Assembly (NCBI RefSeq): GCF_004283755.1 | Contig: NZ_SHMH01000007.1 | Span: forward strand, 186,001-250,000 | Reading direction: 5' to 3' | Source of the DNA: Pseudoxanthomonas winnipegensis | GTDB lineage: Bacteria; Pseudomonadota; Gammaproteobacteria; Xanthomonadales; Xanthomonadaceae | DNA length: 64,000 nucleotides | Shown: one piece after another, positions 42,048-64,000 of the stretch | Numbering within the stretch: the first letter of the stretch is position 1 | How the letters are laid out: the number at the start of each line of letters is the position of its first letter | Made by a program: the position numbers and the translations under genes | The notes under the pieces: model-generated | Database searches by the model: none | The model's input: the letters and a program-made list of their open reading frames with translations, nothing else | Told to the model about the DNA's origin: nothing

Positions 42048-43232
42048 ATGGATGATCGCAACACACCGCAGAACGATGGATTCGCGGCCCAGGTGTCGGG
42101 CATGCAGCCGCGGCCGATCGACCGCGACCTGTCCACCCTGCTCCAGGACAACTATGCCGTGGCCGATCTGCGCCGCGGCGTGTCGGGGCCGGCGCCGACG
42201 CTCCCCGGAGGCTGGGCGCGGATGGGCGACGACGATCTTCGCGCGCTGGGCATCGACCCCGCCTTGCAGCACAACGCCAAGAGCGGCTTCGACGCCTCGT
42301 TCTACCGCGATCCACAGGGCCACGTGGTCCTGGCCTTCGCGGGCACCGACGAGGGCAAGGACTGGAAGCACAACCTCGGCCAGGGCCTGGGCTTCGACGA
42401 CCCGCAGTACCGGCAGTCGATCGAATTGGCCAAGAAGGCCAAGGTCATGCTGGGCGACGACCTCATCCTCACCGGGCATTCGCTGGGCGGCGGACTTGCA
42501 GCGGCCGCGGCGCTGGCGTCCGATACGCCCGCGGTGACCTTCAACGCCTCGGGCGTGCACAACAAGACCTTGGAGCGCGCAGGGCTGGATCCCAAGGAGG
42601 CCAAGGCCTACGCGGCCGAAGGCCTGATCCGCAGCTACGCCGTCAAGAACGAGCTGCTGACCTATCTGCAGGAGGACAGCTTCCCGCTCAAGTACGCCAT
42701 GCCCGACGCGCCGGGGCACCGCATCACCCTGCCCGATCCGGAGCCGCTGGGCGTGTTCGAGCGGCTGGTCCCCGGCAGGATGCTCATGCACCGGTTGGAT
42801 CTGCACTACATCGACGCAGTCATGCAGGCGCAGGATCAAGCCGGCCTCGGCGCGCGCGCCGGTACTGCCGAGGGCGCGAGTGCGCCCACCGCCAACCGCC
42901 TGCTGGACGACGCGGTGCGCGGCCTGGCGCCGCAGCGTCAGCGCCTTGGGCTGCAGGACGACGAGGCCTTCCTCAACACCGCCGCCAGCCTGGCGGCCGA
43001 CGCCCGCCGCGAAGGCCTGCAGCGCATCGACCACGTGCTGCCCGGCCGGCAGGGCGAGGCGGTGTTCGCGGTCCAGGGCGGACTGGCCGATCCGACGCAA
43101 AGGCGCAGCGCGGTGGACCTGGCACAGGCCAGCGCCGAGCCGGCACGCGACAGCGCCGCGCAGCTGCGCCAGCAGGAATCCCAGCAGCTGGCGGCGCAGC
43201 ACGAACCGCACCAGCGCGCACTGCAGGCCTGA
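42048..43232 (+). CDS. Lipase effector with VirD4-interacting domain (X-T4SS effector)
   Basis: The 394-residue protein has two parts. The N-terminal lipase (class 3-like, about 30-260) has VVLAFAGTDEGKDW and the nucleophile elbow LTGHSLGGGLAAA with Ser145, and a His near 248-253 (MHRLDLHY). The C-terminal about 117 residues (from 278) match the XVIPCD pattern: RLLDDAVRGLAPQ, then GLQRIDHVLPG, VFAVQGGLADP, and a Gln-rich tail. This domain targets bacterial-killing toxins to the Xanthomonadaceae type IV secretion system. No signal peptide is present, as expected. ATG 42048 has AAGGA 7 bp upstream. No T4SS genes are in the window. Confidence 0.88.
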   Translation: MDDRNTPQNDGFAAQVSGMQPRPIDRDLSTLLQDNYAVADLRRGVSGPAPTLPGGWARMGDDDLRALGIDPALQHNAKSGFDASFYRDPQGHVVLAFAGTDEGKDWKHNLGQGLGFDDPQYRQSIELAKKAKVMLGDDLILTGHSLGGGLAAAAALASDTPAVTFNASGVHNKTLERAGLDPKEAKAYAAEGLIRSYAVKNELLTYLQEDSFPLKYAMPDAPGHRITLPDPEPLGVFERLVPGRMLMHRLDLHYIDAVMQAQDQAGLGARAGTAEGASAPTANRLLDDAVRGLAPQRQRLGLQDDEAFLNTAASLAADARREGLQRIDHVLPGRQGEAVFAVQGGLADPTQRRSAVDLAQASAEPARDSAAQLRQQESQQLAAQHEPHQRALQA

Positions 43233-52066: not shown

Positions 52067-55000
52067 CTACCAGCTGAATCCCGCACCGCCCGACACGCCG
52101 CGATCGCTGCCGCTGAACGCGCCGCCGAGGGAGACGGAGATGTTCTTCTTCTCGCCCACGATCCGTTGGTAGCCGATCGCCAGCGCGCTGCGTCCGTTCT
52201 GAGATCCGACACCGGCGCCCAATCGGTTGTCGCCCGCGAGCCCGGCCGTGTTCAACGCCATGCCCGCGTAGGCGGCGCTCATCGCGCCCATCCTGTCGAT
52301 TCTCCTGTCCACCTCGCGGAAGCGTTGCGAGGCCCAGTCCCGCTCAGCCTGGACGACCTCACGCATCTGCTGGAGGTTCACCGCGTCGGTGGGCGCCACA
52401 CCTGCGGCGACGTTGGAGACCCGACGTTCGGCTCCGCTCGAACCAACCGAGACCTCGTTCTCGCCCTCCGCAACCGAGCCCTTCCCGATGGCCACCGAGT
52501 TCGTTCCGGACGCGCTCGCGCCTTCGCCAACGGCCATCGAATCCTGCCCGTCGCCATGGATCAGTCCATCGCCCTCGCCAGCAGGACCCGATCCGAGACC
52601 GTCGGCGACGGCATGCTCGACGGCCTCCACGCGACCGCTCAAGCCGTCGATCCTGCCTTCGAGCAGCGTCTTGATGTCGAACAGCTGCCCGCCATTCACC
52701 GCCTCCATGCTGTCCGCGGCGATCAGCCCGCGCCCGACATTGGCCAGCACGGTTCCACCCCATCCGCCGAAGGTCGCCCGGCCCAAGCTGACATCGTCAT
52801 AGGTCAGCACGGTAAGCGGATTTCCGGAGACTGGATCGATCGCGCCCGCAGCGCGAAGCTGCGCCATGGTGACGACATCCTGGTCCTTCACGCCGTTGGC
52901 CACGCCCGTCAGGCGTCGGTCGCCTTCGGCGCCGGAGAAGTCCACTTCATTGCCCATTCGGCCCGCGCCCACCTTGATGCTGTCGCCGGGGTCGGCCTGG
53001 GTGACCAGGCCTACGCCGCCACTGGAGAGGTTGGAAACCGCATCGACCAGGTGGGTGACGCTGGATTCCGCACTGACCAAGCGTCCATCCATCTCCCCTA
53101 GCGCATGCTCCGCATCGCGCATGCGGACGTTCGTCTCGGCCAGCTGTGCGCCATTGACGGCGTCCTTGCTGTCGGTGGCGATCTGGCCGGCGGCCACGCC
53201 GGTCAGCACGCGCGTGCCAGCCGTGCCGGTGAAGTCCACACGATCGCCGCCCGTGTTCGCCCCCATCGTCAGGACAGACCCGGGCGAGATCTGCTGGACC
53301 AGGCCCGAGGTGCCGCTGGCCAGGCCATTGAGGCGCCCGTTGATCGTGTTGATGCTGGCGGTGTTGATGGTGGTTCGACCATCGAGGTTGGCCAGCGCCT
53401 CTCCCACGCTGGAGACGCCCTTGCCGTCTACGATGTAGCTGGGGGCCGTCACGGCACCCGTCACCGGATCGACACGCGCGCCGCCGCCCAGGGCGGCCGC
53501 CATCCCTTCTCCCAGCCGCGTGGTTCGGCCGCTCTGGACACCGATCGCTGCCAAATTGGCAGCCACATCGGCATTGGTCGCCGCGAGCTGCGCGCCGTTG
53601 ACGGCCTCGTCGCTGTCGGCCCCAACGCGTCCCGCGGCAAGGCCAGCCAGGGTGCGGCGACCCGAAGTGCCACCGAAGTCCACTCGATCACCATCCGTCG
53701 CCGCGCCCACCGTTAGAGCGGCCCCGGGCGAGGCCTGCTGAACCAGCCCCGAGGTGCCGGTGGCCAAGCCATCGAGACGACCGTTGATCGTGGTGATGCT
53801 GGCGGTGTTGTCTGTGGTTCGACCATCAAGGTTGGTCAATGCGGCCCCGACGCTCGAGACGGCCTTGCCTTCCACCATGTAGCCGGGAGCCGTCACAGCA
53901 CCGGTTGCCGGGTCGACGCTGGCACCGCCACCCAACACGGCCGCAATGCCATCGGCGATGTTGACGGTGCGAGCCGCTTGGGAGCTCAGCGAGGCTGCAT
54001 TGGCTGCGACCTCGACATTGGTGGCTGCAAGCTGTGCGCCATTGACAGCGTCAGCGCTATCCGCCGCGATCTTGCCGGCGGCCACGCCGGTCAAGGTGCG
54101 CGCGCCAGCGGTCCCGACAAAATCCACTCGGGCACCATCCGTCGCCGCGCCCACCGTCAGCGCAGCCCCGGGCGAGGCCTGCTGGACCAGGCCAGCGGCA
54201 CCGCTGGCCAGACCATCGAGGCGTCCGTTGATCGTCGTGATGCTGCTGGTGTTGCTGGAGGTTCGACCGTCAAGGTTGGTCAATGCGGCCCCGACGCTCG
54301 AGACGGCCCTGCCTTCCATCACGTAGCTGGGAGCCGTCACGGCACCAGTCGCTGGATCGACGCTGGCACCAGCGCCCAACGCAGCCGCGATGCCATCGGC
54401 GATGTTGGTGGTGCGAGTCGCTTGGGAAATGAGCGAAGCAACATGAGCCGCCAACTCGGCGTTGGTCGCTGCGAGCTGCGCACCATTGACCGCGTCGACG
54501 CTGTCGGTCGCGACGCTGCCCGCGGCCACGCCGCTCAGCGTGCGCGCGCCAGCGGTCCCGGCGAAGTTCACGCGATCACCGTCGGTACCAGCGCCGATCG
54601 TCAGCACCGACCCAGCAGAGACCTGCTGGACCAGGCCAGCGGCACCGCTGGCCAGACCATCCAGGCGTCCGTTGATCGTCGTGATGCTGCTGGTGTTACT
54701 GGAGGTTCGACCATCGAGATTGGTCAATGCCGCCCCCACGCTCGAAAAAGCCTTGCCCTCCAAGGTGTAGCTGGGCACCGTCACGACACCGCTCACCGGA
54801 TCAACGCTGGCGTCGCCGCCCAGCGCGGTCGCGAGGCCGTCGGCGATACTGGTGGTGCGAGCCGCTTGGGACGTCAGCGAGGCGGCATTCGCGGCCACAT
54901 CGGCCTTGGTCGCGGCCAGCTGCGCGCCATTGATGGCGTCGGCGCTATCGGCTGCGACCTTGCCAGCGGCCACGCCCGTCAGCGTACGCGCCCCCCCGGT

Positions 55001-56290
55001 CCCAACGAAGTCGACCCGATCACCGTCAGTCCCGGCACCCACCGTCAGCGATGCCCCGGACGAGGCTTGCCGGACCAGGCCAGCACTGCCGATGGTCAAT
55101 CCGTCTAAGCGGCCGCTGAGGTTGGCGATGTTGCTGGTATTGCTGATGGTTCGGCCATCGAGATTTGTCAGCGCGGCCCCGACGCTCGCAACCGGCTTGC
55201 CCTCCAGGCTATATGCCGGGCCGCTGACGGCACCGGTCGAAGGATCGACGCTGGCGCCGCCGCCCAACGCCGCTGCCACGCCCTCTCCGAGACTGGTCGC
55301 GCGAGCGGTCTGTTGACTGAGTGAGGCGAAGTTCGCGGCCACGTTGGAATTGGTCGCAGCAAGCTGCGAACCGTTGACGGCCTCGGTACTGTCGGCGACG
55401 ACCTTGCCCGCCGCGACCCCTGTCAGCGTGCGCACGCCGGCGGTGCCAACGAAATCCACCCGATCGCCGTCGATGGCAGAACCGACCATCAGCGGCGCAC
55501 CAGGCGCATGTTGCTGGACGAGGCCGGACTTTCCGCTGGCCAAATCCTCGAGGCGGCCGTCGATCGTGGTGATGCTGCTGGCGTTCTGCGTCGCGTGCGC
55601 ATCGAGCTTGGTCACTGCCTCGCCAACGCTCGAAACCGAGGTGCCGGCCACACTGTAACTGGGAGCAGTCACCGCACCGCTCACCGGATCGACACTGGCG
55701 CCGCCGCCCAGCGCGGTCGCCAGACCGGCGCCCAGACTGGCCGTGCGAGCAGTCTGCGCACTGAGCGCGACCGCATTGGTGGCGACGGCCGCGTTGGTGG
55801 AGGCCAACTGCGCGCCGTTGACCGCGTCGGTGCTCGAAGCCGACAGTTCCGCAGCCTTCACACCCGTCACGCGATTGTTGCCAAAGCTGGCAATGGAATC
55901 GAAGTTGGCCGCGCCGACGATGCTCACTCCGCCGTTGCCTTTCAGCACTAGCCGACCATCGCTATAGCCGACGACCTGTGCCGTCGAGTTGGCGAATCCA
56001 TTACCGCCTGAATCGTTTCCATTGTTGTTGAGCGCAAAGGAGGCGGCGCCCTTGCTGCAACTCAGCGTCGCTGGCGCCGTCGAGCCTACGCCAAGCATTT
56101 TTCCTGAGCCTGAGCCATCAGCGACCGTCGGGCATAGCTGGAGTGACCCATTTCCGTTCGCTTGAGCGAAGGCGGGCCCTGCAGCGAAGGAGAGCGCAAG
56201 CAGTCCCAGCGAGGGCAGCGCCACCGAAGGCGCCTCAGGCCGATCAGCCTTGTTGGAACCGCAAGCGAATGCCTTGAACAGTGAGGTCAC
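52067..56290 (-). CDS. YadA-type trimeric autotransporter adhesin
   Basis: A 1407-residue surface adhesin of type Vc. The GTG start at 56290 has GGAGA 7 bp upstream; the frame continues upstream to 56437 without support. A signal peptide (about 1-42, ending AFAQ) is of ordinary length, lacking the extended ESPR form. Then comes a short head and a stalk of repeats (about 256-995) rich in GVAAGKVAADSADAVNGAQLAATN-like YadA stalk motifs. A second head-like part has GEGASASGTNSVAIGKGS. The C-terminal anchor (about 1335-1407) ends in GGAGFSW, the usual aromatic terminus. Trimerises in the outer membrane; likely binds surfaces or host matrix. Confidence 0.92.
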   Translation of the reverse strand: MTSLFKAFACGSNKADRPEAPSVALPSLGLLALSFAAGPAFAQANGNGSLQLCPTVADGSGSGKMLGVGSTAPATLSCSKGAASFALNNNGNDSGGNGFANSTAQVVGYSDGRLVLKGNGGVSIVGAANFDSIASFGNNRVTGVKAAELSASSTDAVNGAQLASTNAAVATNAVALSAQTARTASLGAGLATALGGGASVDPVSGAVTAPSYSVAGTSVSSVGEAVTKLDAHATQNASSITTIDGRLEDLASGKSGLVQQHAPGAPLMVGSAIDGDRVDFVGTAGVRTLTGVAAGKVVADSTEAVNGSQLAATNSNVAANFASLSQQTARATSLGEGVAAALGGGASVDPSTGAVSGPAYSLEGKPVASVGAALTNLDGRTISNTSNIANLSGRLDGLTIGSAGLVRQASSGASLTVGAGTDGDRVDFVGTGGARTLTGVAAGKVAADSADAINGAQLAATKADVAANAASLTSQAARTTSIADGLATALGGDASVDPVSGVVTVPSYTLEGKAFSSVGAALTNLDGRTSSNTSSITTINGRLDGLASGAAGLVQQVSAGSVLTIGAGTDGDRVNFAGTAGARTLSGVAAGSVATDSVDAVNGAQLAATNAELAAHVASLISQATRTTNIADGIAAALGAGASVDPATGAVTAPSYVMEGRAVSSVGAALTNLDGRTSSNTSSITTINGRLDGLASGAAGLVQQASPGAALTVGAATDGARVDFVGTAGARTLTGVAAGKIAADSADAVNGAQLAATNVEVAANAASLSSQAARTVNIADGIAAVLGGGASVDPATGAVTAPGYMVEGKAVSSVGAALTNLDGRTTDNTASITTINGRLDGLATGTSGLVQQASPGAALTVGAATDGDRVDFGGTSGRRTLAGLAAGRVGADSDEAVNGAQLAATNADVAANLAAIGVQSGRTTRLGEGMAAALGGGARVDPVTGAVTAPSYIVDGKGVSSVGEALANLDGRTTINTASINTINGRLNGLASGTSGLVQQISPGSVLTMGANTGGDRVDFTGTAGTRVLTGVAAGQIATDSKDAVNGAQLAETNVRMRDAEHALGEMDGRLVSAESSVTHLVDAVSNLSSGGVGLVTQADPGDSIKVGAGRMGNEVDFSGAEGDRRLTGVANGVKDQDVVTMAQLRAAGAIDPVSGNPLTVLTYDDVSLGRATFGGWGGTVLANVGRGLIAADSMEAVNGGQLFDIKTLLEGRIDGLSGRVEAVEHAVADGLGSGPAGEGDGLIHGDGQDSMAVGEGASASGTNSVAIGKGSVAEGENEVSVGSSGAERRVSNVAAGVAPTDAVNLQQMREVVQAERDWASQRFREVDRRIDRMGAMSAAYAGMALNTAGLAGDNRLGAGVGSQNGRSALAIGYQRIVGEKKNISVSLGGAFSGSDRGVSGGAGFSW
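53306..55525 (-). repeat. Five tandem 444-bp repeats inside the adhesin gene
   Basis: Five in-frame units of exactly 148 codons each begin at GLVQQ or GLVRQ and contain DRVDFVGTAGARTLTGVAAGK, NGAQLAATN, GGGASVDP and ALTNLDGRT segments. Partial units flank both ends (a first part before 55525 and a shortened sixth from 53305). Units three and four are the most alike. Such repeats can change number by recombination or slippage. Confidence 0.9.
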
Positions 56291-56465
56291 CTGTTTTTCT
56301 CCACTCTGATTGACGAATCCCCGCTCGACCGCGACCTGCGGTGGCAGAAGCCAGGCCCCCGAGGGCAGCGCGCGTGCCGGGTGGACCTGCATGGATCTGC
56401 GGCGCATGCGCGCCATCAAGCCGATGGGACTACGCAAACTAGTCGCCGCCTGAGGCAGGCGACAT

Positions 56466-56481
56466 CAGGCAATTCCTAAAT
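56466..56481. promoter_or_regulatory. Shared 16-bp motif upstream of adhesin gene
   Basis: TCAGGCAATTCCTAAA, an imperfect dyad (TTTAGGAATTGCCTGA on the minus strand), lies about 175 bp before the adhesin start. A near-identical copy (14 of 16) is at 56968-56983. The gap 56291-56602 also has a 9-bp hairpin (56442-56463). The form resembles LuxR/NarL-type response-regulator sites; this is inference. Confidence 0.5.
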
Positions 56482-56602
56482 CGCAGGCACCTGAGCTGCG
56501 GAGGCCAACTCGCCAAGGCGCAGCCTTAGCACCAGAGCTCGCGCAGGTGCGCTGCGTTCTACCGTGAAATGACCGAGGCGGACGGCAGGCCCCTGCCCGG
56601 CC

Positions 56603-56878
56603 TCAGAACACCATCCTGAGCAGATTCGACATGGCCGCAAGCGCCAGCACGATCTCCTGCCAGCGCCTTGAACCGACCAAGGAAAAAGCGGCGTAAAGCA
56701 GGCTGTAGCCCCCTAGAATGAGCGCCAGCACCGTGAACCATCCGCCCGCAGGATAGGCGCACACCGACAGCATCAGCGTCACCGCAGCAATGCCGCGAAG
56801 AAGCGCCGTCAGGGCGCAGTCGGTGGAGGCGACTGCGGCAGACCTAGGAGCTTTGTTTGCCAATGCGGATCTCTTCAT
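56603..56878 (-). CDS. Small predicted membrane protein
   Basis: A 91-residue protein starting at ATG 56878, with three hydrophobic helices at about 22-42, 45-62 and 72-88 (for example FTVLALILGGYSLLYAAFSLVG). The start at 57037 would add an unconserved-looking 53 residues. No family is recognised. It lies upstream of, and in the same direction as, the adhesin gene, and shares its 16-bp upstream motif. Confidence 0.6.
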   Translation of the reverse strand: MKRSALANKAPRSAAVASTDCALTALLRGIAAVTLMLSVCAYPAGGWFTVLALILGGYSLLYAAFSLVGSRRWQEIVLALAAMSNLLRMVF

Positions 56879-56967
56879 ATGCGTCCGCCAAGCCCGGCCC
56901 AATGCCGGACATCCGAGCTGGGATGCTCCCGATGCCCACCCTAAGACCCCCTTCAGGGGCCCCTCAA

Positions 56968-56983
56968 TCGGACAATTCCTAAA
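56968..56983. promoter_or_regulatory. Shared 16-bp motif upstream of small membrane gene
   Basis: TCGGACAATTCCTAAA matches 56466-56481 at 14 of 16 positions, including 11 consecutive bases. It lies 90 bp before the small membrane protein start. Pairing with the adhesin copy suggests one regulator for both genes. Confidence 0.5.
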
Positions 56984-57110
56984 GCCGCCCTGATCCAGAC
57001 ATCGCGGCACGCAATCGTTGCAGCGATGCGCATTCAAACAACATCGAAAGAACTGAAATCTAAGGTATGCCTGATGTCCTTGGCGATACAGGCGGACCTA
57101 TTCTCGAGCG

Positions 57111-59858
57111 ATGTTGAAGATCCATGCGCGACTGCTGCGCAGCCTGAAGGTTCCTGCCATCGCCTCGACGCTGCTGAAATTGCTGACCGGTTGCGTCTTT
57201 CTGTGCCTGACGTGTGCCACCTGCCTGTTCCTGCATGCCCGGCTCGCCGACGCCGTGTCGACGCATCGTCGCGAAATGAACGCAGTCGCATACGAGGCGC
57301 AGCTCTACTTCGACCAGCGAGAGGCACTGCTGCGCTACCTCCGCGACTCCGTGCTGCCGGGCGATGGAGCTCGTCCCGCCGCGTTGGGTGAGGGCGCGCG
57401 CGAGGTGGCGCTGGGAGACGCTGGCAGTGGCCGTCTGGTCCTGTCCTCGCGTGCCGAACACACACTGCAGGAGCTGCAGACGCAGCTTCGTGCGATCGAC
57501 GCGCAGGGCGCCCATCGATTGGCGGGGGCCGATATCGAGGTCGATCCTGCACGCATGCCCTCGCTGCAGGAGCTTCTGGCCCGCCTGCGCCGGTCCAAGG
57601 ACGCTAATCATGTGTACTGGATTGGCCTGGGCGAGAGCGGCCTTGCCCTGGCTCAGCCGATGCAGGTCGATGGCGAGCCGACCCAGTGGCTATTGCTGCT
57701 TCTGGAGCGTGCCGCGACCGAGGCCATCCTGGAGGGCGAGCGTGTCGCCGATTACGCGCTGATCGATCCCGCGGGCAGGTCCGCGCCGGTCCGTCACGGG
57801 AATCCGAACCAAGGTGCGGACTGGGAGGCGCTGCGCAAACAGGAAAGCGATCACTTCGGCATGCTCTGGCGCCATGGCCTTCCGCATGGCCTGGCCCTCA
57901 TCAAGCGTCTCGGCGATGACGGCTGGCGCCTGGTCTATCGCCTGCCACCCACCCGGCTGCTCGACGACCTCTCCGCGCCCCTGCTGGCCTGCACGCTGAT
58001 GCTGCTGATCGCGGGCATCGCTCTTCGACTCCTGCGACATTGTGTCGACCGCCAGCTGATCCAGCCGGCGCTGCGACAGCATCGGCGTCTGCTGGAGAAC
58101 CTGGACTTCAGCTCGACGGTGATCGACATGGCGCCTGCCGGCATCTGCGTATTGCGCCGGAGCGACCGTCATCTGCTGCTCTCCAACCAGTTGCTGCGGG
58201 ACTGGCTGGGTGAGGACCATGAGTACAGCGACTGGAGAGCGCCATGGCGCGGGCATGCCGGCGAGCACGGCCGTGGGCTGGAGTTCACTACGCGCGACGG
58301 GCGGCAGCTGCAGGTGCTGCATGCCGCCTGCCGCTACCAGGGCGACGACGTTCTGCTGTGCGTGTTCCATGACATCTCCCGGCATCGGCAGGCGCAGGCA
58401 GCGCTGTCCTCGGCGCGCCAGGCCGCGGACGCCGCCAACCAGGCCAAGAGCGCCTTCCTGGCCACCATGAGCCATGAGATCCGCACCCCCTTGTATGGCG
58501 TGCTGGGCACGCTCGAACTGCTCGGCCACACCTCGCTCGACGCGCGACAGTCACAGTATCTGCGCACGATCGAAAGCTCATCGTCGGTGCTGTTGCAGCT
58601 GATCAGCGACGTGCTGGACGTCTCCAAGATCGAATCGGGTCAGCTCAGTCTCAAGCCGGCGCCGTTCTCGCCGCGCGAACTGACCGAAAGCGTGCTGCGC
58701 AGCTTTGCCGCTGCCGCGACCCGCAAGGGCCTGCATGTGCTGGTCTGCACCGACCCCGCCCTGCCGACCCGCGTGCTTGGCGACGCCGACCGCATCCGGC
58801 AAGTCCTCGGCAACCTGCTCAGCAATGCCATCAAGTTCACCGAGCATGGCCGCGTGGTGCTGCGCGTGCGCCAGTCACAGCATGAGGAAGAGTCGAGCGT
58901 ACTGGTCTGGCAGGTCACCGACACCGGGGTGGGGATCGCAGCAGAAGAGCAGGATCGGTTGTTCGAGCCCTTCCGCCAGGTGCGCAGCGCGACCAGCACG
59001 CAGGGCACGGGACTGGGCCTGTCCATCAGCGATCGTCTGGTGCGCCTGATGGGCGGGGAACTCCAGGTGGTCAGCGAGCCGGGACTCGGCAGCAGTTTCA
59101 GCGTGCGCCTACCGCTGCCGGTACTGGACACCACCGAGGACGGCCCGGTGTTGCGGCCGGAGCCGCCGATCCTGGTCCGCGGCCGCGACCGCGAACTGGT
59201 CGACAGCGCGTGCGGCTGGCTGCGCCGCTGGGGCGCCAACGCCCAGCCGCTGCAGGGCGACCCGGCCCTGCTCGACCGCGACGGGGCAATCCTGATGGAC
59301 GGCGAAGCCGGTATGCCATTGGCGTGGAGGGGGCCGCGGGTGGTAGCGTCGATCGATGGGGGCGACCAGCCCCACGTGGCCGCCGACGGTAGCCTGATGG
59401 TCACCCTTCATGGCATCACCGCGATCGGCAAGGCCCTGGCCTGCCTGCAGCAACGGCGCACCGCCTTGCCGGAGACCACGCGCGCAACGCCTCCCACGCC
59501 GCTGGGTCTGCACGTGCTGGCCGTGGAGGACAATCCGATCAACCGGGTGATCCTGGCCGAGCAACTGCGCGCGCTCGGCTGCGAGGTGGAACTGGCTCAG
59601 GATGGCGCGGAAGCGCTGCGGCTGTGCCGCGAGCAGGCCTTCGACTTGGTGGTGACCGACATCAACATGCCACGCATGGACGGCCACTCGCTGGCCCGCC
59701 GCTTGCGCGACGAGGGCAACCCGGTGCCTGTGGTCGGCGCCACCGCCAATGCCACCGCCGAGGAGCGCGAGCGCTGTCTGGCCAGTGGCATGCGCGGCTA
59801 CCTGAGCAAACCCATCGATATCGCCCATCTGCGCAGAGCCCTCGCCGCCCTGCGCTAA
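57111..59858 (+). CDS. Hybrid sensor histidine kinase (first paralogue)
   Basis: The 915-residue kinase has a membrane helix at about 15-35, a periplasmic sensor (about 40-285), a second helix near 290-310, a PAS-like domain (about 335-430) and then HisKA with His455 in ATMSHEIRTPLYGVLG. HATPase_c follows (DTGVGIAAEEQDRLFEPF, GTGLGLSISDRLV), then a degenerate receiver (about 685-790) without phosphoacceptor. The C-terminal receiver has Asp850 in VVTDINMPRMDG. No HPt domain is present. It is 11 bp upstream of the REC-EAL gene and strongly resembles the kinase at 61201. Confidence 0.93.
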   Translation: MLKIHARLLRSLKVPAIASTLLKLLTGCVFLCLTCATCLFLHARLADAVSTHRREMNAVAYEAQLYFDQREALLRYLRDSVLPGDGARPAALGEGAREVALGDAGSGRLVLSSRAEHTLQELQTQLRAIDAQGAHRLAGADIEVDPARMPSLQELLARLRRSKDANHVYWIGLGESGLALAQPMQVDGEPTQWLLLLLERAATEAILEGERVADYALIDPAGRSAPVRHGNPNQGADWEALRKQESDHFGMLWRHGLPHGLALIKRLGDDGWRLVYRLPPTRLLDDLSAPLLACTLMLLIAGIALRLLRHCVDRQLIQPALRQHRRLLENLDFSSTVIDMAPAGICVLRRSDRHLLLSNQLLRDWLGEDHEYSDWRAPWRGHAGEHGRGLEFTTRDGRQLQVLHAACRYQGDDVLLCVFHDISRHRQAQAALSSARQAADAANQAKSAFLATMSHEIRTPLYGVLGTLELLGHTSLDARQSQYLRTIESSSSVLLQLISDVLDVSKIESGQLSLKPAPFSPRELTESVLRSFAAAATRKGLHVLVCTDPALPTRVLGDADRIRQVLGNLLSNAIKFTEHGRVVLRVRQSQHEEESSVLVWQVTDTGVGIAAEEQDRLFEPFRQVRSATSTQGTGLGLSISDRLVRLMGGELQVVSEPGLGSSFSVRLPLPVLDTTEDGPVLRPEPPILVRGRDRELVDSACGWLRRWGANAQPLQGDPALLDRDGAILMDGEAGMPLAWRGPRVVASIDGGDQPHVAADGSLMVTLHGITAIGKALACLQQRRTALPETTRATPPTPLGLHVLAVEDNPINRVILAEQLRALGCEVELAQDGAEALRLCREQAFDLVVTDINMPRMDGHSLARRLRDEGNPVPVVGATANATAEERERCLASGMRGYLSKPIDIAHLRRALAALR

Positions 59859-59869
59859 GGAGACCTCGC

Positions 59870-61066
59870 ATGACCCAGCGTGTCCTGATCCTGGAAGACC
59901 AGCCGTTCCAGCGTGGCTACCTCGCCAACCTGCTCGGCAACCGCATCGGCGTAGAGGTGGACGCCTGCGAGGACGTGGATGCCGCCGTCGCCTTGTGCGC
60001 GTGCCGATCCTACGATCTGGTGCTCAGTGACCTGCTGATGCCCGGCCAGGACGGCATCCAGTTCATCCAGGCACTGGCCGCGCAATCGCGTCCGCCACGC
60101 CTGGCAGTGGTCAGCGCGGCGCCCAGGCGAATGATGACCTCGGCCCGGCTAATGGCCGAGTCGCTGGGGCTGGACGTGATTGCTCTGTTGGCCAAACCAG
60201 TGGCTGAGAACGACGTGGAGGCCTTGTTCGAAACATTGGCGCAGGCTCGTCCGCCCGCAGCGACAGCGATAGTGGCGAGCGCTGTGCCGGATCCCGATGC
60301 CCAGGAGTTGCGCCAGGCCATGGCCGAGGGCCGCCTCACCGCCTGGTTCCAACCGAAGAAATCCCTGCGGTCCGGGCGGGTCGTGGCCGCCGAAGCGCTG
60401 GTACGCTGGCGCCACCCGCATCTGGGGACGCTGACCGCGAGCAGTTTTCTCCCCGCGATCTGCCACCACGGCCTGGAAGGCGAGCTGCTTCGGATGGTGC
60501 TCAAGGCAAGTATCGCGGCACAGGCGCGCTGGCGCAGGCGAGGCTTCCGGGTGCCGGTCTCGATCAACCTACCCCCGCATCTGCTGGAGCAGCCCGACCT
60601 GCCCGATGCGCTGCTGGCGCTGACCCTGGAGCTGGGCGGCACGCCAGGGGAACTGTGCTTCGAACTAATGGAGAGCAGCACCACCCGGCACGTCAGCGAC
60701 TTCTACGCCGGCGCCTGCCGTCTGCGCATGAAGGGCTTCGGCCTGGCCCAGGACGACTTTGGCCAAGGGCTGAGCTCGGTCCACGACCTGGTCAATACCC
60801 CTTTCACGGAAGTCAAGATCGACCGCATGCTCGTCAGCGGCTGCGCCAGGGATCCGGCCCTGTATCAGACCCTCTCGACCATCGTCGCCTTGGCCAAGCA
60901 GCTGGGCTTGACCATCGTGGCTGAAGGCGTGGAAAGTGACGCCGACCTGGCCGCGCTTCGGCAACTGGGCTGCAGTCAGGTACAGGGCTTCCTGATCTCG
61001 CAGGCGGTCCCGTCGGACGATTTCACCCAGCTGCTGGAGGATGAAGTACCGCTCGATACTTCCTAG
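59870..61066 (+). CDS. REC-EAL c-di-GMP phosphodiesterase, RocR/PvrR type
   Basis: The 398-residue response regulator has a receiver domain (1-120, LILEDQPFQRGYLANLL; phosphoacceptor Asp54) and an EAL domain (about 145-390). Catalytic residues are present: Glu175 in EALVRW, Asn233, Glu265 and Glu268, Asp295-Asp296 in DDFGQG, Lys316 and Glu352 in AEGVES. It should hydrolyse c-di-GMP when phosphorylated. Architecture and wording resemble Pseudomonas RocR and PvrR, which oppose fimbrial expression. AAGGAG overlaps the kinase stop, and it lies between two hybrid kinases. Confidence 0.93.
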   Translation: MTQRVLILEDQPFQRGYLANLLGNRIGVEVDACEDVDAAVALCACRSYDLVLSDLLMPGQDGIQFIQALAAQSRPPRLAVVSAAPRRMMTSARLMAESLGLDVIALLAKPVAENDVEALFETLAQARPPAATAIVASAVPDPDAQELRQAMAEGRLTAWFQPKKSLRSGRVVAAEALVRWRHPHLGTLTASSFLPAICHHGLEGELLRMVLKASIAAQARWRRRGFRVPVSINLPPHLLEQPDLPDALLALTLELGGTPGELCFELMESSTTRHVSDFYAGACRLRMKGFGLAQDDFGQGLSSVHDLVNTPFTEVKIDRMLVSGCARDPALYQTLSTIVALAKQLGLTIVAEGVESDADLAALRQLGCSQVQGFLISQAVPSDDFTQLLEDEVPLDTS

Positions 61067-61200
61067 GTTGCCACGCGTTGAAGCGCGCTCCATGCTGCTC
61101 GAATCCACGCCGTGGCGTTGACGATTTGCCTGTGCCGGGGCACTGAACGGTCTCCCCCGCGGCCAAGTCGCGCTGCTTTCCCGCCGCTCCGAGACCCGCC

Positions 61201-64000
61201 ATGCCGGCCGAGGCCGTTCCCGTACGTCGACTCGCACGCCGCTCCCTGCGCGTCCATGCCCTGCTGATCGGGGTCGTGGTGCTGGCGACCCTGCAGGCTG
61301 GGCTCCTGCTCTCCACCGGCAAACAGCTGTTGAACGAGGAACGCGGCAAGATCGAGTACCACTTCCGTCGCCTCGACGGCACGCTGCGCGAACAGGAACG
61401 CTTCCTCAGGCAGTGGCGTCTGCACGATGTCGGCGAGCAGGGGCGTTCCGTTCCTGAGGCCGGGGTGGAGCGGCGGCGCGGTCCGCTCTTCGCCGATTTC
61501 GCCTTGGTGGGAACAGCAGGCGCCGATACCCCAAGCCCGGACGCACTGGGTGATCGCTTCCTGCGCTTCTATGGCACGTTTTGGTCAGCGTCGCACTATC
61601 CACCGCCACAGTGCCTGCTGGTCGATGGACAAGGCACGCGCGGGCTGCTGGCACCGGTGCAGATGAGCGATGCGGATGCGAGCCTGAGCAGTCCGCATCA
61701 CCTGCGCCCGACGATCGCCCAGATCCATCGTGCGCTGGGCACACAGCCGGTTCTCAAGCGCGGTGGCATCGTCTGGGCCGCCGTGCCCTGGCGCGATCGG
61801 CAGACCCGCCTGCTGGCCATCGCCCATGCCCCACAGGACGCGCACCTGTGGGGCGAGGCGGAAGACGGCTCGCTGGCCGTACTGGCCTGCCTGCTCGACC
61901 CCGGACGCATCGACGACTACAGGCAGGTGCTGGGCGTTCCCGTGTTCCAGCGGCTATCGCTGTTCGATCCCACCGGCCAACGGCTGCTGGGCGAGGAGGC
62001 GGATCTGAGCGAAGCGGGACCTTCCGTCCAGGCCGGTCGGGACGGTCTGCGGTTCTACATGCGCAGCGACAGCGGCTGGCGCGCCGTCTATCAAGTGAGC
62101 TGGCGGCAGCTCTGCCAGAACCCGCAAGGTCCGGTGCTGGGCGCGATGCTGGTCGCCCTGGTGCTGGCGCTGGCCGGCGTGCTCGCGCTGCGTGCCTATC
62201 GACGCTCGGTCATCGAGCCGTTGCGCAACAACCACGCACGCCTGCTGGAAAGCGAGGCGTTCATGCGCACCCTCCTGGACCACGCGCCGATCGGGCTGTG
62301 CCTGCTGCGAAGCGCGGATGGCGAGGTCCTGCTGGACAACGCTTTCGCCCGCCGCTGGCTGGGCGAAGACCATCACGCGGACGGCTGGTCCGGCCACTGG
62401 CGGCACACCGTGCTGGCAGCCGGAGGTGCCGTGCCAGGCGACGGACTGCCTTACACCACGCCCGAGGGCCTGCATCTGCTGGTGACGGCAACACCGGCGC
62501 GCTATCGCGGGGAGCCGGCGGTGCTATGCCTGTTCATCGACCTCAGCAGCCAGCGAGAGGCCGAGCAGGTCCAGCAGCAGGCACGCCTTGCCGCGGACCA
62601 GGCCAACCGGGCCAAGAGCCAGTTCCTGGCCACCATGAGCCACGAGATCCGCACCCCGCTTTACGGCGTGCTGGGCACCCTCGAACTGTTGGGGCTGACT
62701 CCGCTCAGTGCCCGGCAGGAGGGCTATCTGGCCACGATCCAGCGCTCATCCTCGACGCTGATGCAGCTGATCAGCGACATCCTCGACGTGAGCAAGGCCG
62801 AGGCCGGACAACTGAGCCTGGAGCCGAGCCCCTTCGATCCTGCCCGACTGACCGAGGATGCGATGGACTCGTACGCCGCCGCAGCGGCGAACAAGGGCCT
62901 GCAGTTCTATGCCTGCATCGACGCAGACCTGCCCGCCATGGTCTGCGGCGATGCCGCGCGGATCCGTCAGATCCTCAACAACCTGATCAGCAACGCGCTG
63001 AAGTTCACCGACAGCGGCCGCGTCGTGGTGCGCGTCTCACGACGCTGGCATGGCGAAGACTGCTGGCTGCAGTGGCAGGTCGCCGACACTGGCATCGGCA
63101 TCGCCAGCGAACACCAGGCGCATCTGTTCGAACCTTTCTACCAGGCCAACCCCGGCACCGATGCGATGCGTGGCACAGGCCTGGGCCTGGCCATCTGCGC
63201 GCATCTGGCGTCGCTGATGCAAGGCCACCTGCGCGTGGTCAGCGAAAGCGGCCTGGGCAGCAGCTTCAGCGTCGATCTGCCGCTGCCGCCAGCGCCGCCC
63301 GACCCTCAACAGCCGCCCGCCCCGCGTCTGCCGGCAGGCCTGCAAGTGCAAGTCCGCGGCCAGGTGCGCGAACTGGTGCAATCACTGTGCGAACGCCTAC
63401 AACAGCGCGGTGCCCACGCCAGCGTGCATCGCGCAGAAGCCGTTGCGGGTGGGCCGTCCACGACGGTGCTGCTGGACCTGGTGCTGGACGGCCCGCCAGC
63501 GGCCTGGCAGGTCGGCCCGCGCGTGGTCGCCTGTCCCCAAGCAGGCGTGCGGCCACAGCGGACAGGCGACACCTGGCAGGTGGGCCTGCATCGACTCGAC
63601 GCCATCGTGGCCGCGCTGGCCACCGCCAGCAGCCCTTCGGCATCGGGCGGGGCGGAAAGGTGCGTGCCCGCGCTGCACGATTTCGGTCTGCAGGTGCTGG
63701 TGGCCGAGGACAACCCGATCAACCAGGCCATCCTGCGCGACCAGCTGGAACAGCTCGGTTGCCGCGCCGTGGTCGCCAGCGACGGCAACGAGGCGCTAGG
63801 CTATTGGCAACAGGGCACCTTCGGGCTCGTACTGACCGATCTGAACATGCCGCGGCTGGATGGCTACGGCCTGGCCCGCGCACTGCGTGCGCGCGGCGTG
63901 GGCGTGCCGATCTATGGCGCCACCGCCAACGCCGACCCAGCCGAACGCCAGCGCTGCGAGGAAGCGGGCATGCAGGGCGTGCTGGTCAAGCCGATCTCCC
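61201..64000 (+). CDS. Hybrid sensor histidine kinase (second paralogue, cut by window end)
   Basis: The open frame runs from ATG 61201 through the window end (933 codons), so the C-terminus is missing. Order: membrane helix about 20-40, periplasmic sensor about 45-310, second helix about 315-335, PAS-like domain, HisKA with His481 (ATMSHEIRTPLYGVLG), HATPase_c (DTGIGIASEHQAHLFEPF, GTGLGLAICAHL), a degenerate receiver, and a receiver with Asp880 in LTDLNMPRLDG. The receiver is nearly complete at the cut. The kinase core is almost identical in plan and wording to the first kinase, but the sensor differs. It is 134 bp after the REC-EAL gene. Confidence 0.92.
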   Translation, partial: MPAEAVPVRRLARRSLRVHALLIGVVVLATLQAGLLLSTGKQLLNEERGKIEYHFRRLDGTLREQERFLRQWRLHDVGEQGRSVPEAGVERRRGPLFADFALVGTAGADTPSPDALGDRFLRFYGTFWSASHYPPPQCLLVDGQGTRGLLAPVQMSDADASLSSPHHLRPTIAQIHRALGTQPVLKRGGIVWAAVPWRDRQTRLLAIAHAPQDAHLWGEAEDGSLAVLACLLDPGRIDDYRQVLGVPVFQRLSLFDPTGQRLLGEEADLSEAGPSVQAGRDGLRFYMRSDSGWRAVYQVSWRQLCQNPQGPVLGAMLVALVLALAGVLALRAYRRSVIEPLRNNHARLLESEAFMRTLLDHAPIGLCLLRSADGEVLLDNAFARRWLGEDHHADGWSGHWRHTVLAAGGAVPGDGLPYTTPEGLHLLVTATPARYRGEPAVLCLFIDLSSQREAEQVQQQARLAADQANRAKSQFLATMSHEIRTPLYGVLGTLELLGLTPLSARQEGYLATIQRSSSTLMQLISDILDVSKAEAGQLSLEPSPFDPARLTEDAMDSYAAAAANKGLQFYACIDADLPAMVCGDAARIRQILNNLISNALKFTDSGRVVVRVSRRWHGEDCWLQWQVADTGIGIASEHQAHLFEPFYQANPGTDAMRGTGLGLAICAHLASLMQGHLRVVSESGLGSSFSVDLPLPPAPPDPQQPPAPRLPAGLQVQVRGQVRELVQSLCERLQQRGAHASVHRAEAVAGGPSTTVLLDLVLDGPPAAWQVGPRVVACPQAGVRPQRTGDTWQVGLHRLDAIVAALATASSPSASGGAERCVPALHDFGLQVLVAEDNPINQAILRDQLEQLGCRAVVASDGNEALGYWQQGTFGLVLTDLNMPRLDGYGLARALRARGVGVPIYGATANADPAERQRCEEAGMQGVLVKPIS

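Follow-up and report, generated by a model that had tools for sequence, protein, structure and literature searches.

In Stenotrophomonas maltophilia, the bsmR operon consists of DP16_RS18240, bsmR, DP16_RS18250 and bsmT; BsmR degrades cyclic di-GMP (c-di-GMP), BsmT binds and activates the promoter of its own operon, and effects on swimming and biofilm are reported for the BsmR/BsmT system (PMC5498567). Similarly, the PvrSR/RcsCB system of Pseudomonas aeruginosa PA14, linked with cupD, comprises a hybrid kinase, a REC-EAL protein, a kinase with an Hpt domain, and an RcsB regulator. In that strain PvrS is the kinase, RcsC acts as relay and phosphatase, RcsB activates both cupD and pvrR, and an RcsB box, of the type whose GAA is required, stands before the adhesin genes (PMC3842833). 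We analyzed a locus of this kind at the right end of a 64-kb stretch of Pseudoxanthomonas winnipegensis DNA (contig NZ_SHMH01000007.1, positions 186,001 to 250,000; hereafter the window), taken from a 4.49-Mb genome, on a contig that runs on past the window edge. The locus probably represents (estimated probability about 0.77) a PvrSR/RcsCB-type, or Bsm-type, phosphorelay operon with a type Vc trimeric autotransporter adhesin (TAA) as its dedicated target.

The four genes have the same content and order as in the S. maltophilia operon, and the same four kinds of protein as in PA14 are encoded, whereas the neighboring surface protein differs from both. The bsmR-type loci carry a type Va autotransporter after the regulator gene, whereas here a type Vc adhesin is located upstream of the first kinase gene (K1) on the opposite strand. 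The output in PA14 is chaperone-usher fimbriae, and the present neighbor is a YadA-type adhesin, preceded, as in PA14, by a box (here RcsB-type); the locus may operate in the manner of the cupD switch, without being of the fimbrial type. The four proteins are 41-53% identical to those of P. aeruginosa PA7, PA14 itself not being among the compared loci. The features of the locus, in window numbering, are as follows.

52067-56290, minus strand: trimeric autotransporter adhesin (type Vc) with YadA stalk repeats, head repeats, and membrane anchor (Pfam PF05662, PF05658, PF03895).
56464-56482, minus strand: RcsB-type box 1 of the adhesin, GATTTAGGAATTGCCTGAT, 174 nt before the GTG, with a TAG 22 nt on (putative -10 element, CTAGTTT).
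56603-56878, minus strand: small hydrophobic open reading frame (ORF), 91 amino acids including the ATG, downstream of box 2; it may not be a real gene.
56967-56985, minus strand: RcsB-type box 2, GCTTTAGGAATTGTCCGAT, facing the adhesin, upstream of the small ORF, with a TAG 23 nt on.
57057-57075, plus strand: weak RcsB-type box of the operon, AATCTAAGGTATGCCTGAT, with the K1 ATG 36 nt from its last base and no TAG at the usual spacing.
57111-59858, plus strand: K1, PvrS-like hybrid kinase of 915 amino acids, with periplasmic sensor, HisKA (SHEIRTP at 454), HATPase, and REC (TDINMP at 849).
59870-61066, plus strand: REC-EAL response regulator, BsmR/PvrR/RocR-like, with EAL active-site motifs (Pfam run on ORF 59624-61066; 59870 is the start adopted).
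61201-64416, plus strand, crossing the window edge at 64000: second kinase (K2), RcsC-like unorthodox kinase of 1071 amino acids, HisKA-HATPase-REC, then Hpt past the edge.
64413-65054, plus strand, outside the window: RcsB-like REC-LuxR gene, 213 amino acids, overlapping the end of K2 by 4 bases.

The initial annotation, made from the window alone, had recognized two paralogous hybrid kinases around a REC-EAL protein beside a trimeric autotransporter, which Pfam confirmed; its starting position, 56291, is one base from the adhesin GTG. Its description of the kinases as nearly the same in their core with different sensors was right in kind, the amino acid identity between K1 and K2 being 64% in the HisKA-HATPase part, 54.5% in REC, and 16% in the sensor region (a structure model of the K1 sensor has a mean pLDDT of 83.2). 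Both kinases were said to end in a receiver; this holds for K1, in which Pfam finds no Hpt match, but the receiver of K2 is followed past the window edge by an Hpt domain (PF01627, E 2.5e-9). In the same way, an Hpt protein and a DNA-binding regulator are indeed not visible within the window, but both were found just past 64 kb, where the annotation had proposed to look: the Hpt domain in K2 and the REC-LuxR gene. The adhesin frame is open to 56437, and the YadA stalk, head, and anchor matches were obtained with 52067-56437 (minus strand). Judged from the sequence, the favored adhesin start is the GTG at 56290; this start is uncertain, and Pfam finds in the adhesin no match to ESPR, the extended signal peptide present in some type Vc members.

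The best PDB match of the REC-EAL protein, over residues 4-386, is RocR, and its motifs EAL, N, E, DD, K, E, and Q, which we take to be the catalytic residues, are intact both in the alignment with RocR and by position. RocR, of the RocS1/RocS2/RocR/RocA1 system of P. aeruginosa, is the best full-length PDB relative of this protein, whereas the local regulator is closest in PDB to RcsB (5vxn, E 4.9e-42), with EvgA far behind (2.9e-17). The RcsB regulator and the TTAGGAA half-site are shared with the Rcs phosphorelay of Enterobacteriaceae, in which the Hpt domain resides on a separate protein, RcsD, and not inside a kinase as in K2. In the RcsB crystal structure, K180 and S184 contact the half-site TTAGGAA (PMC5829831), and the window regulator has Lys and Thr at the matching positions; its recognition helix is identical in all 13 S. 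maltophilia-complex loci.

An RcsB-type box, TTTAGGAATTGYCYGAT, is located upstream of the adhesin. With one mismatch allowed, CAATTCCTAAA occurs twice in the window (56470 and 56973), both times between the adhesin and K1 (shuffle mean 0.01). A first matrix was built from seven distinct K1-upstream sites of 16 Stenotrophomonas loci. By this matrix the adhesin-side sites at 56466 and 56969 rank first and second in the 64 kb (16.8 and 15.1, the next being 14.3); these values lie near the top of the shuffled range (8.7-16.3, 43 loci), so that rank and place carry the weight and the scores alone are modest. A second matrix, derived from 11 operon sites (10 from Pseudomonas and one from the Stenotrophomonas genome SAM-B; nine distinct) and including no S. 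maltophilia operon sites, again ranked the same two sites first and second (22.6 and 22.0; next 14.3). A still earlier matrix had both window sites among its eight seeds and is not counted as evidence. In the whole genome, the 15-mer TTTAGGAAWYGNCYG with at most one mismatch is found solely at the two adhesin-side sites (one occurrence of the reversed control). The distance of the operon box at 57057 from K1 is the same as that of the corresponding box in L032.

The box and an adjacent surface protein recur in related loci. An ORF follows RcsB in 16/16 Stenotrophomonas loci, and the gene is a pertactin-like type Va autotransporter; 13 of the 16 were aligned (57-94% identity to the first), and of two scanned by Pfam the second gave no beta-domain match. 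With the first matrix, a site after RcsB was detected in all 13 S. maltophilia-complex loci (20.3-23.6), and L041-L043 score 15.0, 20.6, and 22.4; L044, whose adhesin is oriented the other way, has no such site. With the second matrix a site was found in 12/12 of those among the 16 that were tested (15.3-19.8); in six of the 12, one other site of the locus scores as high or higher. In SAM-B, the top first-matrix site of L084 (20.3) is upstream of its YadA adhesin. Among the Pseudomonas loci, 21 of 24 contain an usher gene; eight of the 21, those with a same-strand usher after RcsB, were tested, and the second matrix identified a site in seven, L045 being without one. The first matrix mostly fails in Pseudomonas, where the shuffled maximum of 16.3 is surpassed by only 4/23 stretches upstream of K1 and 2/20 after RcsB, and the Pseudomonas boxes differ in their middle from the first-matrix sites.

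Of the 11 other REC-EAL-bearing genomes sampled from the family, three were already among the loci, two (G400 and G462) were left out, and six were examined in addition. In four of these six, a type Va autotransporter is preceded by the box. G474 has a YadA adhesin beside the module and the box at K1, the adhesin promoter lying outside the examined stretch. G414 carries fimbrial and usher genes, and visual inspection revealed a box there, followed by a TAG 22 nt on. Next to the module, Stenotrophomonas genomes carry a type Va autotransporter or, in two cases, a type Vc adhesin and, in one case, fimbriae; the neighbors in Pseudomonas are mostly chaperone-usher genes. An extra LuxR-type gene is present between REC-EAL and K2 in both TAA-bearing Stenotrophomonas genomes (L044:11212-11886 and L107:9694-10356), the L107 copy being REC-GerE by Pfam; since SAM-B and G474 share it, the TAA linkage in these two may be one event.

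A regulator other than the local RcsB homolog might bind these boxes, as binding in this genome is a prediction and relatives hold further RcsB-like proteins (31-42% identity). We consider this very unlikely. The pattern TTTARGRAWYRNCTGAT occurs 33 times in 22 whole genomes, by position always within module loci (reversed control 0), and not at all in four congeners lacking REC-EAL; it was drawn from module loci, so its absence elsewhere is the sole informative part, and neither window box 2 nor the adhesin box of SAM-B conforms to it. The half-site is, moreover, the RcsB half-site of the crystal paper (PMC5829831). At other RcsB-like loci (L011-L018 and L020), the best first-matrix scores are 9.3-13.3, within the shuffled range. 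TAAs also adjoin such other RcsB-like regulators and hybrid kinases, without this box, in L017 and L020, the L017 kinase having SBP_bac_3 sensors.

We infer a common function of the adhesin and the signaling genes, and the expected binding, phosphotransfer, direction of control, and effect on c-di-GMP would be as follows. The PvrS-like K1 and the RcsC-like K2 would sense different periplasmic signals, and the Hpt domain of K2 would hand phosphate to the RcsB-like regulator, with K2 perhaps also removing it. The RcsB homolog would bind a box of the TTAGGAA type that precedes a TAG-type -10 element by about 22 nt. It would thereby switch on the trimeric adhesin, and a further box would let it do the same for its own operon, of which the REC-EAL phosphodiesterase is part. 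By analogy with the described systems, adhesin and phosphodiesterase would thus probably be turned on together, and the phosphodiesterase would lower c-di-GMP, so that attachment would be limited or ended.

Repression of the adhesin by the RcsB homolog would be the opposite outcome. The direction of control is not readable from sequence, and RcsAB of Yersinia is termed a biofilm repressor (PMC4381331). We nevertheless regard repression as unlikely, because a putative -10 element follows box 1 at about 22 nt, as in the listed Stenotrophomonas K1 promoters, and because BsmT is reported to activate its operon (PMC5498567) and RcsB to activate cupD (PMC3842833). Among 28 promoters, a hand-chosen list and not a sample, the distance from box to TAG is 22-23 nt in 20 and 19 nt in one.

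The distribution of the module was studied by a REC-EAL search of genome contigs, which yielded 56 loci; 13 weak ones (L071-L083) were set aside and 43 used (17 Stenotrophomonas, 24 Pseudomonas, 2 Achromobacter). The order K1, REC-EAL, K2, RcsB is observed in 37/43 loci (17/17, 20/24, and 0/2, respectively). The conserved linkage on which the initial annotation had made its proposal depend was thus found for the four genes, with some adhesin usually adjoining, but not for the TAA, which is beside the module only here, in SAM-B, and in G474. A REC-EAL match at E 1e-90 was found in 12 of 395 sampled genomes of the family, namely this one and 11 of one other genus, taken to be Stenotrophomonas; 37 other sampled congeners gave no REC-EAL match at E 1e-60 (18 candidates scored per genome). 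In the REC-EAL tree (45 rows, quick method), the window gene, a second copy from the same genome, and 13 S. maltophilia-complex loci form one clade (SH-aLRT 100), the placement of the two inside the S. maltophilia-complex clade resting on a node of 86.

Identity to five Stenotrophomonas loci of the S. maltophilia clade is 72-79% for K1, 82-85% for REC-EAL, 76-79% for K2, and 86-89% for RcsB; the identity of these five loci with the bsmR operon is deduced from organization and species, not from direct comparison with the DP16_ sequences. Tgt is 80 and 82% identical to two of those Stenotrophomonas genomes and equally low, 80 and 82%, to the congeners G004 and G036, so that the comparison of the module with Tgt is weak. 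In G017, the closest genome compared (Tgt 97%), the segment 51978-65478 (about 13.5 kb) is replaced by about 450 bp, and the adhesin and the operon are absent together. About 76 bp stand there in place of a further segment, 67490-69528; the two genes that separate the replaced segments are shared, and G010 has no match anywhere between 50040 and 69597. The origin is most simply explained by acquisition from a Stenotrophomonas-like donor. No plasmid match was found at E 1e-60, and the S. maltophilia autotransporter has no match in the window genome or in G017, the genomes of L032, L041, and L044 matching as controls. An intergenic repeat at about 65106-65314, close to the right-hand limit of the segment that G017 lacks, has similar copies at L010 about 9741 and in more than one place in G017.

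The module might instead be a stand-alone regulator of c-di-GMP and motility, as described for BsmR/BsmT, with the adhesin as a chance neighbor. The S. maltophilia paper reports swimming and biofilm effects, the words 'autotransporter', 'adhesin', and 'pertactin' being absent from its available text (PMC5498567), and few relatives have a TAA beside the module. This explanation appears improbable, since the boxes are oriented toward the adhesin and no other site in the window matches better, a surface autotransporter with a box in front also follows the regulator in S. maltophilia, and adhesin and operon are jointly missing in G017. The proposal of the initial annotation, a switch of the Roc/Pvr kind whose output is a type Vc adhesin, gains support from the Hpt domain, the RcsB-like regulator, the four-gene order, and the adhesin-side box.

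Several points weigh against a phosphorelay operon with the adhesin as its target, besides the modest first-matrix scores. The operon box at 57057 is weak, with 13.5 bits and fourth place in the window by the second matrix; box 2 precedes a small ORF of doubtful reality (no Pfam match at E 0.01, and tblastn against a set of the collected loci matched this genome only); and 7 of the 28 listed promoters lack a TAG at 14-28 nt, including window K1, the SAM-B TAA, and five of the seven cup promoters. A TAA beside the module is rare, and the G017 comparison alone cannot tell gain from loss, so that loss elsewhere may have occurred. In S. maltophilia, deletion of bsmR or bsmT gave no clear phenotype, and biofilm decreased when bsmT was overexpressed; phosphorylation of the two kinases was not seen in vitro, nor did they have a marked effect, and BsmR was independent of its phosphorylation (PMC5498567).

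The module itself is already known. The open-licence literature searched yielded no description of its exchange of adhesins or of a box beside the adhesin in genera other than Pseudomonas: the linkage of adhesin and module is absent from the titles and abstract starts that the search surfaced, and 'Stenotrophomonas' does not occur in the available passages of the first cupD paper (PMC2696094). We are moderately inclined to see here a portable adhesin switch, whose RcsB box and promoter arrangement became attached in different lineages to three kinds of surface structure: chaperone-usher fimbriae, type Va autotransporters, and type Vc trimeric adhesins. A single regulator would then turn on adhesin and phosphodiesterase together, so that attachment would carry its own limit regardless of the adhesin involved. 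This suggests that bacteria reuse one regulatory switch for unrelated modes of surface attachment, and offers a case in which signaling module and operator stay largely constant while adhesin class and secretion pathway change. The BsmR/BsmT system gains a concrete surface target to test, and the locus provides a short testable operator.

About 3 kb downstream, past the window, a second, intact REC-EAL gene (L010:5197-6402) encodes a protein 86% identical to the first. Remnants of K1 and of the YadA adhesin C-terminus precede it in the same relative order (L010:4561-5190), and the two REC-EAL genes are sisters in the tree; to judge by these remains, the second copy is a decayed copy of adhesin-K1-REC-EAL.

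Recent gene conversion between the K1 and K2 cores was considered and rejected. In a kinase tree of 44 rows (built by a quick method from 22 of the 43 loci and the window), two label changes are needed for K1 and two for K2, which indicates that their paralogy is old; Stenotrophomonas K1 sits nearer K2, and an older conversion event may have occurred.

Elsewhere in the window, the ORF at 42048-43232 carries the Pfam domain 'X-Tfes, XVIPCD', presumably a mark of type IV secretion effectors against bacteria.

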